Below are positions 26,116 through 32,455 of a stretch of DNA of 32,455 nt, piece after piece. Both the position numbers and the translations under genes were made by a program. Under the pieces are notes generated by a model that saw only the letters and a program-made list of their open reading frames with translations, did not search any database and was not told the DNA's origin. Position 1 is the stretch's first letter; the number at the start of each line of letters is the position of its first letter. The DNA is from Kiritimatiellota bacterium (lineage in GTDB: Bacteria > Verrucomicrobiota > Kiritimatiellia > RFP12 > UBA1067): positions 1-32,455 of the forward strand of contig WRJS01000034.1 in NCBI GenBank assembly GCA_009778475.1. Reading direction: 5' to 3'.

Positions 26116-26200
26116 GCACCCGTGGTGGAATTGGCAGACACGTAAGATTCAGGTTCTTATGCCGAGAGGTGTGGGGGTTCAAATCCCTCCGGGTGCACCA
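26116..26200 (+). tRNA. tRNA-Leu (CAG)
   Basis: 85 bases with encoded CCA. The acceptor stem GCACCCG / CGGGTGC pairs fully. The anticodon arm TAAGA-TTCAGGT-TCTTA gives anticodon CAG. A long class II variable arm and the T-loop TTCAAAT are present. Confidence 0.93.
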
Positions 26201-26216: not shown

Positions 26217-26291
26217 GCCCCCTTCGTCTATCGGCTAGGACATCAGGTTCTCATCCTGGAAAGAGGGGTTCGACTCCCCTAGGGGGTGCCA
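26217..26291 (+). tRNA. tRNA-Glu (CTC)
   Basis: 75 bases with encoded CCA. The anticodon loop TTCTCAT gives CTC, and the D-arm GTCTATCGGCTAGGAC and T-arm GGGGTTCGACTCCCC are typical of tRNA-Glu. The acceptor stem GCCCCCT / AGGGGGT leaves a G1-U72 wobble instead of the usual G-C. The minus-strand recombinase gene ends inside it (stop at 26235). The 3' half is the likely attachment site of the element to the right. Confidence 0.92.
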
Positions 26292-27761
26292 ATAGGGTAC
26301 TTTATCCTTACTCGGGATGGGGTTCTTGGAAATCCACAGGGCAACGTGCCACGAACCGTCAGGCTTGCGCCTGACTTCTTTTATGCTCGCACGCAGGAAC
26401 GCCCGCTTCTCCGGGGTGTTTTCGAGTTTCCCGTAACTTCTGGCGATTGCCGCCATCCGGCTCGTGAGGCTTTCAGGCTCGTAGTTTGCCAGAATCGCCT
26501 CCAGCGCGTCTATCTCGCCGCACAGCGCGTCGGAGCGGGAGCGCAGGGCATCCACGGGGGCGGCGGCTTGCGAGAGTTCATCGTTGAACCTTGAAGCGTT
26601 ATCCGCCCTGACGAATCCCGCCAGAAGCATGTCTTTGATTTTTCGCTCGTTGGATTCTGCTATGGATGTTGCTTTGCGGTTCGCGGCGAGTTCTTTTCTC
26701 AGTTCAGCGAGCCGCTCCCTTGTCGAGGCGTTCACGTCCTGCGTCGCCATGTCAAGAACCGACTTGTCCTTCCACGTTTTCAGAATCACATCGGTGACGG
26801 CGGCCTCGAGTTCCTCGGCCTTGATGTAACCTCGGGCGGGGCATACGGCGGAGTCTTGGCAGCGGTAATAGGGGTATGCCTTCCCGTTGCCCTTGGTCAG
26901 CGTGTTTGTTGACATCGCCTTGCCGCAGGAGCATTTGACCATGCCCGAGAGCATATACTCGTAGTTACAGGCGTTTATCCTCGGCGCGGACTTGGTGTGC
27001 GGGAGACGCGCTTGGACGGCGTCCCATGCGGGTTGCCCGATGATAGGCTCGTGCCTCCCTTGGAAAACCTGCCCGGCGAATGATATTTTCCCGGTGTACA
27101 CGGGGGCGCGGAGGATTTTGATCAGTGTGTTTTTAGGCATCTTGAACAGTCTCCGAAGGTCGGTGATGGTATCGCCTTGCGCGTATCTGCGGAAAATCTC
27201 TTTGACGATGGGCGCTTTCGCGGGGTCGGGCAGGAGGATGTTGTCCTTGGCGGGCTTGTCAACGGTGTAGCCGAACGGGGGGCGGCCCGTGAGGTATTGC
27301 CCGGCGCGGGCTTGGGAGAGCATCTTCGCCTTGGTGTTTTCGCCGCCGAGGTGGGCGAAGTATTCGGCGGCGGAGACGAGCAGCTGGAGCATGAAGCGGC
27401 CGGAGGGGCTGGCGAGGTCGAGGTTCTGGCGGACGGCGATGAGGCCCTTCCCTGCCTTGGACAGGACGCGCAGGATTTCGACGTACCCTTCCATGGAGCG
27501 TGTGAGGCGGTCGATGTTCAAGACGGCCATAGCGTCCCAATCCGCCGTGCCGCCGGAGGCTTCGGCGAGCAGGGATTGCAACGCCGGGCGGTCGTTGGTG
27601 CGCCCGGATATGAACTCGTCCACCTTGTCGGGCGCGAACGTCGCCGACGGGTCAACGCGCTGGAGGTGTTCCCGGCAAGCGGCAATCTGTGCCGAGCAGG
27701 AGGTCTCGCCCTCCCAGTCGGATCCGCGCTCGGAGACGCGGGCGTATATCTGGTAGGTCAT
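26235..27761 (-). CDS. large serine recombinase (integrase)
   Basis: The 508-aa site-specific recombinase has an N-terminal resolvase domain with the nucleophile in YARVS (Ser10), plus LNIDRLTRSMEGYVEIL and the long helix about residues 110-150. The recombinase domain follows (GRPPFGYTVD, APIVKEIFRRYAQGDTITDL). A zinc ribbon starts near residue 275 (VKCSCGKAM...YYRCQDSAVC). The coiled-coil part is near 345-440. About the last 18 codons (WHPLGESNPSFQDENLMS) and the stop are inside tRNA-Glu, so the true tail in the excised form may differ. ATGA overlap with the upstream gene suggests coupled translation. It probably mediates integration at this tRNA, which is unusual for serine rather than tyrosine enzymes. 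Confidence 0.92.
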   Translation of the reverse strand: MTYQIYARVSERGSDWEGETSCSAQIAACREHLQRVDPSATFAPDKVDEFISGRTNDRPALQSLLAEASGGTADWDAMAVLNIDRLTRSMEGYVEILRVLSKAGKGLIAVRQNLDLASPSGRFMLQLLVSAAEYFAHLGGENTKAKMLSQARAGQYLTGRPPFGYTVDKPAKDNILLPDPAKAPIVKEIFRRYAQGDTITDLRRLFKMPKNTLIKILRAPVYTGKISFAGQVFQGRHEPIIGQPAWDAVQARLPHTKSAPRINACNYEYMLSGMVKCSCGKAMSTNTLTKGNGKAYPYYRCQDSAVCPARGYIKAEELEAAVTDVILKTWKDKSVLDMATQDVNASTRERLAELRKELAANRKATSIAESNERKIKDMLLAGFVRADNASRFNDELSQAAAPVDALRSRSDALCGEIDALEAILANYEPESLTSRMAAIARSYGKLENTPEKRAFLRASIKEVRRKPDGSWHVALWISKNPIPSKDKVPYWHPLGESNPSFQDENLMS

Positions 27762-29410
27762 GCGACATCCTCGTCAGGCTCTTCGTCGTCACTTTCGGAT
27801 TGAATCACTTCATCCGAATAGTCAACGTTGTCTTGCGATGCGTGGAATTCCTCGGCAGCCATTGTCTTGTTGAACACGGCTGTCGGCTCGATCTCTTGCA
27901 CAAGCTGCTCCAGCGCGTCTATGTCCGTCGTGAAGAACTCTTTGCGCCTGTTCACTTTGTTCACGCGGGAGGCGTTCAGGCGCGTGTGCAGTGCGTTTTC
28001 GAGGGCGACGGCATCATTGGAGAAGATGAAGCAGTGTACGTCGAACTCGAACGGGACGCTGGCGGAGCCGAGCTCGTCTATTCGGTCTTGCGGCTCGAAG
28101 CGGCGCGTCATGCCGATTTTGAATACCTTGTCGCCAAACGCGCCGAGGTTGCTGATGACGTACACAGTACCTGCGACACCCTTTGCGAGCGAGGCGATCT
28201 TCTCTTTCTTTACGACCATCTCGGCCATCTGCGCATTGACCTCTTGAATCCTCTCGCGAACCTCGGCTTGCCTTTCTGGCGGCGCTTCAGCGAGCATCTC
28301 TTGCAGCCGGGCTACCTCGCCCTGGTACTTTGCCTCTTCCTCGGCAATGCGCTTCTGTGCCTCTTCAATAGCCTTGCGCTCGGCGGCTTCCTGACGCATC
28401 TGCTCGCGGATGGCGACCTGTTCCATGCGCTGCTGCTCTTTCCTGACGTACCACAGGTGCTCTATCTTGACGGCCTCGTAGAAATGGTACTCGATCTGCC
28501 CCATGAATTTCGTGAGTGTCGGAAGGATGGTCTGGTTGCCGTCACCGGCGATGAGCGTGGCGCGGGCCAACGCCTTCTTGACCTCGGTATTGGCCTGTTC
28601 CGTCGTTCCGTGGCGGAGGTTGAGGAGGATTGCCTGAAGCTCGGCGCGGAGGGAGACGACGATGAGGGCGTATATCGCGCTGTTGGCCTTGTTGCCGTAG
28701 CGACCCTCGTACTGGACGAAGAGGGACTCTATCTGCCGCTCGTTCTCTTTGAACGCGCGGCGTAGGTCTTTGACGCTCATGGAATGGAGACGCGCCTCGG
28801 TGGACGGCGCGAGCATGTCAACCTCGTCGAAGTCGGCCTTCGGAATCGTGCAGCTCTCGACGCGCGGCTCGTACAGGAGCCAGTTGTTGACGCAGTTTCT
28901 GATGCTGTTGTAAAGCGCCTTCATTTTTGCCAGCTTCTTTGTGTCGCATAGTACAGCGGATTCGATTTTCGCATACCTGCCGGTCGCCTCGTCGAGCTTG
29001 GATTGCATGGTGTTGTTGCCCGCTTCCAGCTGAATGGCTTTCAGCGAGAAATCGCTTGCGAGCGCGTCGTGATTTGCCTTCAGGGCTTTTATTTTCTCCT
29101 GCATGGCTGCATGGTCGTGGTAGCCTACCTGCGAGAGGTAGTTCTCGAACTCGGCGATGCGGCGCGCCATGTCTTCCCGCTCTTCGCCGAGCCGCTGAAG
29201 CTCCTGCCTGTCGGCGGCCTCTTTTTCCGCGAGGCTTCTGCGGTGCAGGATCTGGGCGACGCACGCGGCCGCCCCAGCGGCGGCGGTTATGGCGAGCCAC
29301 CACAGGAAGGCCTTCGGCCAGATGCATGAGAGGCAGACGGCGAAAAACGCCAGCACGGAGAAGACCGGCATCCAGTATTTCGACGAGACGATCGTTTTGA
29401 TTTTTTCCAC
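27758..29410 (-). CDS. membrane-anchored coiled-coil protein with C-terminal GIY-YIG (T5orf172-like) domain
   Basis: 550 aa. Two membrane helices lie near residues 12-31 and 34-54, then a long Glu/Lys/Arg coiled coil (60-150), a DUF4041-like middle part (about 165-300) and a second charged coiled coil (310-400). The C-terminal GIY-YIG domain is at 414-500: VYVISNL and VFKIGM stand for the GIY/YIG strands, Arg443 in QDRIDEL and Glu471 in LENALHTR are the expected catalytic pair. An acidic tail follows. The start is a GTG at 29410 with AAAGGAGC upstream; an in-frame ATG further up adds residues without a signal. DUF4041/T5orf172 proteins occur in phages and islands, with function unproven. It is coupled to the integrase by ATGA overlap. 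A nuclease acting in phage defence or element maintenance is possible. Confidence 0.82.
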   Translation of the reverse strand: MEKIKTIVSSKYWMPVFSVLAFFAVCLSCIWPKAFLWWLAITAAAGAAACVAQILHRRSLAEKEAADRQELQRLGEEREDMARRIAEFENYLSQVGYHDHAAMQEKIKALKANHDALASDFSLKAIQLEAGNNTMQSKLDEATGRYAKIESAVLCDTKKLAKMKALYNSIRNCVNNWLLYEPRVESCTIPKADFDEVDMLAPSTEARLHSMSVKDLRRAFKENERQIESLFVQYEGRYGNKANSAIYALIVVSLRAELQAILLNLRHGTTEQANTEVKKALARATLIAGDGNQTILPTLTKFMGQIEYHFYEAVKIEHLWYVRKEQQRMEQVAIREQMRQEAAERKAIEEAQKRIAEEEAKYQGEVARLQEMLAEAPPERQAEVRERIQEVNAQMAEMVVKKEKIASLAKGVAGTVYVISNLGAFGDKVFKIGMTRRFEPQDRIDELGSASVPFEFDVHCFIFSNDAVALENALHTRLNASRVNKVNRRKEFFTTDIDALEQLVQEIEPTAVFNKTMAAEEFHASQDNVDYSDEVIQSESDDEEPDEDVA

Positions 29411-29440
29411 GGCAGCTCCTTTCCGAAACAATGAAATGCA

Positions 29441-29470
29441 ATTATATCGACATGGCAACAAAAAGTACAA
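29441..29470 (-). promoter_or_regulatory. promoter of the GIY-YIG/integrase operon
   Basis: On the minus strand, TTGTAC (29470-29465), 18 bases, TATAAT (29446-29441), 31 bases before the GTG at 29410. An A/T tract at 29474-29503 separates it from the divergent promoter. Confidence 0.5.
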
Positions 29471-29505
29471 GGCAAAAAAAATATTTATTTTTTTTTATTT
29501 TGTGC

Positions 29506-29535
29506 TTGACGGTGTAGTTACACCTGTGTTAATAT
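29506..29535 (+). promoter_or_regulatory. promoter of the small-gene operon with internal operator
   Basis: TTGACG (29506-29511), 18 bases, TAATAT (29530-29535). The palindrome GGTGTAGTTACACC (29511-29524) fills the spacer, a typical repressor position. Confidence 0.6.
29511..29524. promoter_or_regulatory. operator-like palindrome, copy 1
   Basis: GGTGTAGTTACACC, with arms GGTGTA/TACACC and a two-base centre, between the -35 and -10 of the operon promoter. It is followed by TGTG, as in copy 2. Confidence 0.7.
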
Positions 29536-29563
29536 GGTGGCATTTCAAAGGAGAGTAAGGTTA

Positions 29564-29746
29564 ATGCCAGATTCAAGAAAGGTCGGTAAGAAGCACATCG
29601 GTGCGTGGCTCGATGAGACGGACATTGAGACGCTGAAGAGAATAGCCGTTCTTAATGATACGGATGTGACTGGGTTGCTGAGGATGATTGCTCGCCGTGA
29701 GCAGGTCAAGGTTAAGGAGAATGACAATGGAAAAGAAGTTCGTTGA
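29564..29746 (+). CDS. small ribbon-helix-helix-like protein 1
   Basis: 60 aa (MPDSRKVGKKHIGAWLDETD...). The pattern of a beta strand (KHIGAWLDETD), a helix (IETLKRIAVLND) and a second helix (VTGLLRMIARREQ) resembles a CopG/Arc-type DNA-binding protein. The start at 29564 has GGAGAGTAAGG upstream. It is the first gene after the operator-bearing promoter and is a likely candidate for the repressor. It overlaps the next gene by 20 bases. Confidence 0.7.
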   Translation: MPDSRKVGKKHIGAWLDETDIETLKRIAVLNDTDVTGLLRMIARREQVKVKENDNGKEVR

Positions 29747-29894
29747 GATGGATGATGAGACGTTCGCATATTTTTCGGAGCGGGCGAAAGAAGAAGGCGT
29801 TGATGTGTCGGAGTATCTCCACAATCTCGTCAAGAGTTTTAGCGTGGGTGTAGTTACACCTGTGCGCAATGTGGCTTGCACAGGGTGCGCCTAA
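29727..29894 (+). CDS. small ribbon-helix-helix-like protein 2
   Basis: 55 aa (MEKKFVEMDDETFAYFSERA...). Strand-helix-helix pattern as in CopG-type proteins: KFVEMDDETFAYFSERAKEE then DVSEYLHNLVKSF. AAGGAGA lies seven bases before the ATG at 29727. Its 3' codons (VGVVTPV) contain operator copy 2, so DNA binding would fall inside the gene. The last residues (NVACTGCA) include two Cys. Confidence 0.65.
   Translation: MEKKFVEMDDETFAYFSERAKEEGVDVSEYLHNLVKSFSVGVVTPVRNVACTGCA
29847..29860. promoter_or_regulatory. operator-like palindrome, copy 2
   Basis: GGTGTAGTTACACC, preceded by CGTG and followed by TGTG. It lies inside the 3' end of the second small gene. Confidence 0.65.
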
Positions 29895-29904
29895 TTTTGC
29901 CGTG

Positions 29905-29918
29905 GGTGTAGTTACACC
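29905..29918. promoter_or_regulatory. operator-like palindrome, copy 3
   Basis: GGTGTAGTTACACC, preceded by the same CGTG as copy 2, 58 bases after it. It lies between the second and third small genes. Confidence 0.65.
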
Positions 29919-29948
29919 GTGCTGCGAAAAAGACAGGGGATGAAAGTT

Positions 29949-30164
29949 ATGGCGAGGTTCAAGGTTGTGGAGGGCGTGGGGCTGGTTGACGGGAGGCTGC
30001 TGGAGGCGGCGGACCCGAAGCCGACGGCGAGCATGTCGGTGACGACGGCGCGGGGTGACCGGATCACGGTGTACCCGGCGAAGGGCTGGCGGACGGAGGA
30101 GGCGGTGCGCATCGTGGCGCGGTTCATCGAGGAGACGATGGCGGGGCTGGCGGGCGCGGAGTGA
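29949..30164 (+). CDS. small protein of unknown function
   Basis: 71 aa (MARFKVVEGVGLVDGRLLEA...). Not recognised. A beta-rich first half is followed by an amphipathic helix (TEEAVRIVARFIEETMAGL). AGGGG lies nine bases before the ATG at 29949; an ATG at 29940 is too close to that site. It sits 30 bases after operator copy 3 and 10 bases before the next gene. Confidence 0.6.
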   Translation: MARFKVVEGVGLVDGRLLEAADPKPTASMSVTTARGDRITVYPAKGWRTEEAVRIVARFIEETMAGLAGAE

Positions 30165-30174
30165 AAGGAGCGCG

Positions 30175-30354
30175 ATGAAAAGCAGGACGAGTAAGAAACC
30201 GGCGAAGCGGGACGGGATGGTGAACGTCAACGTCAAGATGACGGTGGCGGAGCGCGGGCGCATCAAGGAGCGCGGGGCGCGTGAGCAGCGGAGCGTGTCG
30301 GCGGAGATACGCTACCGCATGGGGATGGCGTACGGGGCGGAAGCATCCGCATAG
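30175..30354 (+). CDS. small basic Arc/CopG-like protein
   Basis: 59 aa, with a Lys/Arg-rich start (MKSRTSKKPAKRDG). Then VNVNVKMTVAERGRIKERGA and REQRSVSAEIRYRM form a strand-helix-helix pattern like Arc repressors. AAAGGAG lies four bases before the ATG. It is probably a DNA-binding regulator of the element. Confidence 0.65.
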   Translation: MKSRTSKKPAKRDGMVNVNVKMTVAERGRIKERGAREQRSVSAEIRYRMGMAYGAEASA

Positions 30355-30367
30355 GGGGGGGCTGGTT

Positions 30368-30592
30368 ATGGCTGCGGGAGCTGAGAAGAGGCGGTACGTG
30401 CGGAGGGCGGAGCGGCGGTATCCCGACAGGGTATGCGGGCGGCCGATCGTCATATCCTCGGTGGAGTACGTCCCATGTTCGCCGGAGCAGGAGCGGAGGA
30501 TACTTGACCTCTGCCGGGCGGCGCACGTGGCGTCGGGGTTGCGCCTGTGGGCGGAACCGCGTGCCGTGGCGGGCCCGCAGATATACTTTTGA
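30368..30592 (+). CDS. small basic protein of unknown function
   Basis: 74 aa (MAAGAEKRRYVRRAERRYPD...), no recognised family. The N-terminus is strongly basic, and there are three cysteines (RVCGRP, VPCSPE, LDLCRAA). A G-run (GGGGGGG) lies upstream of the ATG at 30368. It is part of the tight plus-strand chain. Confidence 0.55.
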   Translation: MAAGAEKRRYVRRAERRYPDRVCGRPIVISSVEYVPCSPEQERRILDLCRAAHVASGLRLWAEPRAVAGPQIYF

Positions 30593-30604
30593 GGAGGTGA
30601 TGGC

Positions 30605-30934
30605 GTGAGCGTTAGCGTGATAGGCAAGACAGGCGCGACAGGCGGAGGCGCGCGCATTGACCTTCCGGATGCGGTGCATGAGTGCTGCGCCGCGCTCGGG
30701 GTCGAGCCGATGCGCCTGTGCGATTGCGAGCTCTTGGTCCTCGCGGGGTGGATCGTGCCGAGCATCGACGGGCTGGAGCATGCGTTCAGGCCGCGCGTCA
30801 CGGAGAGCCTCCGGGATGCCGTCGTGCGCCAGCGCGGGGAGGCGGCGGCGGATGCGCTGGACAGGTTCTTCGGGTGGTCTCGGGCGAACGGTAGCTCATG
30901 GCGTGTGCAGATGCGGGAGGGGGTCACGGGATGA
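30605..30934 (+). CDS. protein of unknown function preceding the resolvase
   Basis: 109 aa, starting with GTG at 30605 behind GAGGAGGTGAT. Not recognised; an alpha-helical, mildly acidic protein with Cys in HECCAAL and LCDCELL. The stop overlaps the resolvase start as ATGA, so the two are probably translated together. Confidence 0.6.
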   Translation: MSVSVIGKTGATGGGARIDLPDAVHECCAALGVEPMRLCDCELLVLAGWIVPSIDGLEHAFRPRVTESLRDAVVRQRGEAAADALDRFFGWSRANGSSWRVQMREGVTG

Positions 30935-31536
30935 CGGTCTACGGGTATCTCAGGGTGTCGACTGGCGGGCAGACGGTGGAGACGCAGAGGATCGGGGTGC
31001 TTGCGGAGGCGCACAGGAGAGGGCTTGCGGTTGATGAGTTCGTCACGGACGAGGGCATTAGCGGCGGCGTTGAATATGAGAAGAGGAGGTTGGGGCCGCT
31101 GCTCGAGAGGATAGGCGATGGGGACGTGATCATCGCAAGCGAGATTTCCCGGCTCGGAAGGACGCTGTTCATGGTGATGCGCATCCTTGATCATTGCGTG
31201 AAGGTTGGCGCGAAAGTATATACGCAGAAGGATGCGTTCGAGCTTGGAGACAACGTGCAGTCGAAGGTGCTGGCGTTCGCGTTCGGGCTGGCGGCGGAGA
31301 TCGAGCGGAAGATGATCAGCGAGCGGACGAAGGAGGGGCTGGCGCGGGCGAGGCGTGAGGGGAAGGTGCTTGGGCGGCCTGTGGGCCGGAAGAACGCGCG
31401 TTTGAAGTTGGACGGTCAGGAGGATAGCATCCTGCGTTACAGGCGGATGGGGTTGTCGTGGGTGAAGGTTGCGAGGGTTATCGGCGTGGACAGGGCGACG
31501 TTGGATAAATTCGTGAAGGAGAGGATGGAAATATGA
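30931..31536 (+). CDS. small serine recombinase (resolvase/invertase)
   Basis: 201 aa. Catalytic Ser10 in YGYLRVSTGGQ, conserved EISRLGRTLFMVM and the long helix QSKVLAFAFGLAAEIERKMI, then GLARARREGKVLGRPVGRKN and a C-terminal helix-turn-helix (GLSWVKVARVIGVDRATLDK). This is the DNA invertase/resolvase type (about 180-210 aa), distinct from the large recombinase at 26235. Possible roles are inversion of a DNA segment or resolution of multimers. The start at 30931 overlaps the preceding stop. Confidence 0.92.
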   Translation: MTVYGYLRVSTGGQTVETQRIGVLAEAHRRGLAVDEFVTDEGISGGVEYEKRRLGPLLERIGDGDVIIASEISRLGRTLFMVMRILDHCVKVGAKVYTQKDAFELGDNVQSKVLAFAFGLAAEIERKMISERTKEGLARARREGKVLGRPVGRKNARLKLDGQEDSILRYRRMGLSWVKVARVIGVDRATLDKFVKERMEI

Positions 31537-31829
31537 GCGAGAGGTATGTGACGGTGATAATCCAGCGGGCCGCGCTGGACAGGGCGTTGCGGATGAAGCG
31601 GTCGAGGAGGGACTGGAGAAGGCGCGCACGGAGAGCCGCGCTGGTCGCTCTCTGGACGCTCGGGATACTGGCGGCTCTGCTGGCGTTCCGCTGGTTCTTT
31701 AAGGAAGAGGAAGTTATTTACCCGGACCCCGTTTGCGAATGGTGCGGCATGGTGCTGTCTGGTGGCGTCACGAACATCTGCGACGGGAGCGAGGGAAGGC
31801 GCTGCGGGGCGTTGGAGGGTTGCCGATGA
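31533..31829 (+). CDS. single-pass membrane protein with Cys-rich tail
   Basis: 98 aa. A very basic N-terminus (MKRSRRDWRRRARRA) leads into one membrane helix (ALVALWTLGILAALLAF), then a C-terminal part with CEWCGMV, CDGS and RRCGALEGC, six Cys that could bind metal or form disulfides. The orientation rule suggests the Cys part is outside. Starts by ATGA overlap with the resolvase stop. Family unknown. Confidence 0.6.
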   Translation: MSERYVTVIIQRAALDRALRMKRSRRDWRRRARRAALVALWTLGILAALLAFRWFFKEEEVIYPDPVCEWCGMVLSGGVTNICDGSEGRRCGALEGCR

Positions 31830-31957
31830 GCGGGGCGTATTTCCCGGCCGGCGGGCGGGCGGACTGCGGGCTGTGCGAGAACATAGCGGCGGTTCTGCGC
31901 GCGAGCGACAGCGACCATGCGGTGTTCGTCGCGCGGATAACGGATGAGGTTGTATGA
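31826..31957 (+). CDS. very small protein, unknown
   Basis: 43 aa (MSGAYFPAGGRADCGLCENI...), with CGLC suggesting a metal or redox pair. It overlaps both neighbours by four bases (ATGA at each end), which supports that it is translated despite its size. Confidence 0.5.
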   Translation: MSGAYFPAGGRADCGLCENIAAVLRASDSDHAVFVARITDEVV

Positions 31958-32397
31958 CGATGACGATGGGCGATGCCAGCCAGATGACGATGGACGCGCT
32001 TCTCGGCGAGGGCGGGCGGCGGTCGCGTGTGCGGCCGAAGCCGATGAAGCCGACGAAGCCGAAGCGCACACGCACGGAGTGGTCGGTCGAGGTTGATGAC
32101 GGCTACGACTACTACGCGGACGGGGCGGAGGCGGTGGTGTGCCTCATGTCGATGGAGCCGAAGGCGAGGTGGATGTACGTCATGCGCCGCGACGAGGCGG
32201 TGCGGTTCTGCGAGAGGAGGGAGACGCGGGGGCAGGGCTGGATGTTCACGTTCACGACGCGGAACCTTGACTGGCGCGAGCATAAGGCGGCGTTCAAGGC
32301 GGACGACGGTCGGTTCGACGGGCTTCTGGCGGAGCTTGGGATCGAGCCGATTTTCAGGGTGACGGCGGCGAAGGCGGGGAAGGGAGGCATGAGATGA
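31954..32397 (+). CDS. hypothetical protein of the element
   Basis: 147 aa (MTMTMGDASQMTMDALLGEG...), no recognised domain. After a basic linker (GRRSRVRPKPMKPTKPKRTR) comes a compact acidic/aromatic part with VSMEPKARWMYVMRRDEAV-like pattern. ATGs at 31954, 31960 and 31966 are all possible. ATGA overlap with the previous stop favours 31954. Confidence 0.55.
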   Translation: MTMTMGDASQMTMDALLGEGGRRSRVRPKPMKPTKPKRTRTEWSVEVDDGYDYYADGAEAVVCLMSMEPKARWMYVMRRDEAVRFCERRETRGQGWMFTFTTRNLDWREHKAAFKADDGRFDGLLAELGIEPIFRVTAAKAGKGGMR

Positions 32398-32455
32398 GCG
32401 CGAAGAGGGCGAAGGTTGTAGGGGCTGGCAATTGACAGCCCGGACAGGCTGGCGA

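Follow-up and report, generated by a model that had tools for sequence, protein, structure and literature searches.

The tRNA-Glu locus and its serine integrase

The window, that is the whole stretch of DNA analysed here, is the entire contig G000:C34 of 32,455 bases. Its right end falls inside an element that abuts a tRNA-Glu gene, and the far end of this element is therefore unseen. The following features were placed at the locus:

26116..26200, + strand: tRNA-Leu(CAG), on the host side (ARAGORN, Rfam; pair with tRNA-Glu kept across the family)
26217..26291, + strand: tRNA-Glu(CTC), the target gene (ARAGORN; Rfam 50.1 bits)
26235..27761, - strand: large serine integrase P0001, 508 aa (domains, clade membership)
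26263..26287, + strand: putative B half of attL, comprising the T-arm and the 3' acceptor strand of tRNA-Glu (placed from the axis)
26288..26312, - strand: putative P' half of attL, a 25-bp half-site in the 3' end of the integrase gene (same position in 24 relatives; motif match weak)
26292..32455, no strand: the element as far as the contig goes, the remainder lying beyond the contig end
27758..29407, - strand: T5orf172/MUG113-domain phage protein (phrog_1847) adjoining the integrase (domain and PHROG matches)
29513-29526, 29851-29864 and 29909-29922, no strand: the palindrome GGTGTAGTTACACC, present three times where the integrase operon and the rightward genes diverge
30931..31536, + strand: a second, small serine recombinase of the DNA-invertase type (phrog_125, 2.6e-36)

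The tRNA-Glu gene lies behind tRNA-Leu, a pair that is conserved in the host's family, and in most of the family relatives listed the similarity on the chromosome side stops at 26291 or a few bases off. The first-pass annotation of this DNA had the integrase frame read through the CCA end into tRNA-Glu, which was borne out by ARAGORN, Rfam and the translation of the reading frame. The stop codon that it placed in the anticodon region was wrong: the frame crosses the anticodon (26250-26252) and terminates farther on, at 26235-26237, which is tRNA position 19-21 in the D-loop. It also had the element start exactly at the tRNA 3' end. The location at that end holds, while the crossover itself probably lies 4 nt inside, between 26287 and 26288, and the last 4 nt of the gene (discriminator and CCA) would accordingly derive from the element.

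P0001 contains Resolvase, Recombinase and zinc-ribbon domains, all scoring over the Pfam cut-offs. The active-site residues R8, S10, Q25, R85 and R88 are conserved, and R8, S10, R85 and R88 are invariant among 22 aligned sequences. Over its final 18 codons the gene is the antisense strand of tRNA-Glu, from the 3' end of the tRNA inward, and the protein ends in GESNPSFQDENLMS. Since residues 479-508 have pLDDT values below 50 in the AlphaFold model, being predicted as disordered and devoid of any domain, this C-terminal tail is probably dispensable, tolerated rather than functional.

Behind the integrase, phage-type genes run on to the contig end. The three copies of GGTGTAGTTACACC are likely repressor operators. 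Small open reading frames were also observed at 29564-30352, one of them weakly matching an Arc-like repressor family (E 0.006).

A clade of integrases ending in tRNA and tmRNA genes

Searches of genome and viral contigs with patterns derived solely from P0001 yielded no relatives; these were recovered with a clade alignment. In a tree of 59 proteins, P0001 was found in a well-supported clade of 26 rows (100/99), apart from 30 serine recombinases whose genes do not run into a tRNA gene; within the tree it sits on a long branch (1.41). The clade occurs in Lentisphaeria/Kiritimatiellae genomes, in Lentisphaerae/Victivallales and Pontiellaceae bins and in IMG/VR prophage contigs. The best full-length relatives at the level of the phylum are about 31-36% identical, and for nearly all of them the 3' end of the gene falls within a tRNA or tmRNA gene. 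The clade shares the signature RVSP[KR]GS and a nearly invariant W491, whose codon is, in most relatives, the TGG complementary to CCA.

Sixteen junctions at which a related integrase adjoins an intact tDNA were scored with ARAGORN. In all 16 the junction TGG is exactly complementary to the CCA with which the tRNA or tmRNA ends, so the overlap between integrase and tRNA is not due to chance. Ten targets are represented: Glu(CTC), Glu(TTC), Arg(CCT), Asn, Gln(TTG), Gln(CTG), Leu(TAG), Ala(GGC), Ala(CGC) and ssrA. It had been reasoned initially that related recombinases beside a different gene would count against integration at the tRNA end; relatives do adjoin different genes, but every one of these is a tRNA or tmRNA gene.

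Among the clade rows labelled as non-tRNA, attP-type junctions predominate; the others are L157, L153 and L094. L157 is cut off by the contig end, and L153 is actually at tRNA-Gln, its frame traversing the entire tRNA. L094 (G172:C11) carries a tRNA-Ala-like core, but the first 60 kb of the contig (157 kb in all) contain no tRNA. It looks like an attP-type or tandem junction, yet departs from the symmetry of the outer arms, and may be a tandem insertion or one at a secondary site.

In the host's family, another and only distantly related set of large serine recombinases was also seen to end antisense in tRNA genes: L074 (G114:C43) in Val(GAC), and L077 (G012:C137) and L020 (G009:C149) in Arg(CCG). 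These three group together in the tree (100/100). A search for viral relatives of two other tRNA-ending serine recombinases returned none.

Anatomy of the att sites

Ten attP sites of relatives, two reconstructed and eight read directly, were aligned on the TGG. They form palindromes of about 50 bp made of two 25-bp half-sites. The outer 8 bp of one arm pair with those of the other about one axis only, TGGN|N, with 68 of 80 pairs matched, as against 12-26 at other shifts and a maximum of 36 in 2000 shuffles. This axis lies between tRNA nt 72 and the discriminator nt 73, equivalent to 26287/26288 in the window. An initial centre at TGGTG|GAG was replaced by TGGT|GG, one base over, once the outer arms of the ten sites had been scored.

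In most of 24 members the integrase-side arm, [AG]GTTCGNCTAA or GTTATGNCTAA, keeps a constant distance. It is conserved as DNA rather than as protein, because third codon positions are kept (T at -19 in 24/24, G at -16 in 23/24) and the first position at -15 varies, and because L150 retains the arm motif in another reading frame. In the attP arms CGAAC lies at 20-24 from the axis and its copy in the tRNA T-loop at 16-20, a shift of 4 (GTTCG type); for the GTTATG type, AAC is at 23 in the attP arm versus 18 in the T-loop, a shift of 5. In the structure of a Listeria integrase, half-sites measure 25 bp and the zinc-domain motif of attB is some 5 bp closer to the centre than that of attP (PMC3783163). 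The T-loop may thus serve as the zinc-domain motif of attB, with the reservation that every tRNA has it at this place.

The window carries a single attP half-site. Neither its arm nor that of G011 has a CGAAC-type motif, and the window arm motif, AGTAAGGATAA, is a weak match to that of the clade.

Both ends, empty sites and a circular or tandem form in relatives

In relatives attL, attR, attP, the empty attB and the diversity of targets were all observed, with an intact tDNA at one end of the element and a displaced tDNA fragment of 8-11 nt at the other. At the tRNA-Ala of G396:C58, AATGGTGGAGCAG forms a direct repeat of 13 bp, with copies at 661 and 33924, that bounds an element of 33,263 bp. 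At the ssrA of G302:C7, the integrase junction and the far end (21599) are 35.06 kb apart, with the 8-bp core TGGTGGAG. The corresponding empty attB was found in two sister species of the same genus (G330, G522), where ssrA is directly joined by the far flank (91-93% identity) and the two overlap in the 8-bp core only. Finally, at the tRNA-Glu(TTC) of G529, an attP at 79 and an attL at 39096 lie 39,017 bp apart on one contig with the core TGGTGACCC, so that a circular or tandem form was sequenced beside the integrated one. The core common to attP and attB thus measures 8-13 bp in G302, G396 and G529. Both G396 and G529 encode tape-measure/tail and terminase proteins, and their elements are prophages.

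The modelled circular forms of G302 and G396 end in WWSIRHLNITCVIAIDVGGKYRK and WWSSRHLNITCIVAIDIGKKIKEKSA, each followed by a stop, in place of the tRNA-derived tails. They support the earlier expectation that a tail of about 18 residues would differ in the circle: the C-terminus changes on excision because one attP half-site sits within the integrase gene.

The first-pass annotation had proposed to find the other end through a second copy of the tRNA-Glu 3' half. This search, run on the window's own bin (91% complete), gave none among the matches listed, and the predicted palindromic far arm was likewise absent among the matches listed for that bin. A long second tRNA copy was also sought in G167 (140 kb) and not found. 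Its absence there and in the own bin follows from the short core: as complete relatives duplicate only 8-13 bp, a search for a second tRNA 3' half fails by design. When an empty site was looked for in the family of G167, only the tRNA itself was matched, besides some host-gene matches. An 11-bp repeat in G207 was considered as a far end and dropped, no inverted arm following the repeat. By analogy with the relatives, the far end of the window element is predicted as TGGC, then an arm near ACCCCCN...TCCTTACT, next to host DNA.

The same tRNA-Glu has a history in the family. In G011 a C-terminal remnant of a related integrase (~58 residues) is still in place there, and in G012 a serine-integrase fragment of 60% identity lies 6 kb from tRNA-Glu on the same contig. 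Directly behind the tRNA-Glu of G012, an apparent tyrosine-integrase fragment was read by eye (G012:C25; L060, 4447-4900), and with the serine-integrase fragment farther on, the site looks like a reused hot spot.

Proposed mode of integration and rival explanations

Taken together, a prophage-like element has very probably been inserted at the tRNA-Glu end by its own large serine integrase. By analogy to the complete relatives, this enzyme would recombine a palindromic attP of about 50 bp with an attB in which downstream host DNA follows the T-arm and 3' acceptor strand of the tRNA. Strands would be exchanged at tRNA nt 72/73, and the tRNA would remain intact because the element provides the discriminator and CCA. 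A short core (8-13 bp in relatives) would remain at the other end of the element. One 25-bp attP half-site would coincide with the 3' terminus of the integrase gene, so placed that the frame would enter the tRNA antisense in the integrated state and the other attP arm in the circle. For the window element itself, far end, circle and activity are read across from these relatives. What speaks against this reading is the long branch of P0001, the weak fit of its arm motif, the far end not found among the matches listed for the bin, and an empty site seen in relatives only.

It is improbable that a tyrosine integrase located beyond the contig end inserted the element, the serine recombinase being a passenger beside the tRNA by chance. 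Such enzymes classically act at tRNA 3' ends, and the fragment read by eye in G012 at the same tRNA-Glu would fit; nevertheless, the CCA abuts the end of the serine integrase gene exactly in 16/16 scored relatives, whose att sites have the anatomy of serine-integrase sites (25-bp half-sites, short core) and lie within the integrase gene. That the overlap is an accident of a stop codon lost beside the tRNA, unrelated to integration, has a still smaller, almost negligible chance: the same overlap recurs at ten different tDNAs in the clade and attL, attR, attP and the empty site were resolved in relatives, even if the disordered tail without a domain would fit it.

A decayed, immobile remnant that kept the integrase end and lost the far end, as in G011 and G012, is unlikely but has to be taken more seriously than either of these. 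The decayed relatives in those two genomes and the failure to find the far end in the bin among the matches listed speak for it, whereas the full-length integrase frame with its active-site residues kept and the phage-type genes up to the contig end speak against it.

For the clade as a whole, a broader reading is put forward tentatively, and we hold it at somewhat under an even chance: its members may be large serine integrases specialised for tDNA, their zinc-domain motif being the universal T-loop GTTCG(A), which would switch among tRNA genes and always cut at nt 72/73. Such switching would be possible because in every tRNA the T-loop motif is equally far from the acceptor end. The exchanged C-terminal tail might, in addition, mark the integrated state.

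Relation to known systems and significance

The 3' ends of tRNA genes are usually used by tyrosine integrases, an unrelated enzyme family. The authors of Islander stated that serine integrases were not known to use tRNA genes (PMC4383910), and none of the serine-integrase sites of Mycobacterium abscessus was reported at a tRNA gene (PMC10654092). Serine integration at tDNA is known and rare, with phiRSM1, mycobacterial AICEs and DsiB of Dehalococcoides as cases, in keeping with the initial remark that a large serine enzyme is unusual in such a place. No earlier report of a clade of large serine integrases specialised for many tDNAs was found in the open-licence literature.

The phage phiRSM1 of Ralstonia (PMC3816273), cited as the sole tRNA case in PMC3218068, also encodes a serine recombinase that acts at a tRNA 3' end, and its 13-nt core TGGCGGAGAGGGT starts at the CCA complement as in the window clade (PMC3816273). 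It differs in being a filamentous phage with a small resolvase/invertase-type enzyme and tRNA-Ser as single target, whereas P0001 is of the large type with 508 aa; its attP lies between ORF14 and ORF15, whereas that of the window clade overlaps the integrase gene. The DsiB of Dehalococcoides is a serine recombinase at ssrA whose gene overlaps attL with its 3' end and reads into ssrA (PMC3146451). However, it belongs to a CcrB-like two-recombinase module with a 20-bp repeat, T-loop insertion and one target (PMC3146451), in contrast to the axis at nt 73/72 and the core of 8-13 bp in the relatives of the window element. Mycobacterial AICEs are serine-recombinase elements integrated in a tRNA gene, tRNA-Leu, and differ in being restricted to one tRNA and to mycobacteria (PMC3218068).

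The A118/Listeria and Bxb1/phiC31-type integrases share with the clade the domain order, the 25-bp half-sites, the pseudo-palindromic attP and perhaps a motif that is nearer the centre in attB (PMC3783163). Their model sites are non-tRNA sites, whereas attB in the window clade is the T-arm and acceptor end of a tRNA and attP overlaps the integrase gene. In the same way, the streptococcal rumA serine ICEs have their att within the integrase gene, and integration swaps the integrase C-terminus, but their target is a protein gene (PMC4701971).

Island finders based on tRNA require a tRNA fragment perhaps longer than the one left by elements of this clade, which may therefore be missed. The clade yields predicted sets of integrase, attP and attB for at least ten tDNAs. 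Retargeting with a constant cut point within one enzyme family thereby becomes testable, which would be useful to genome engineering.
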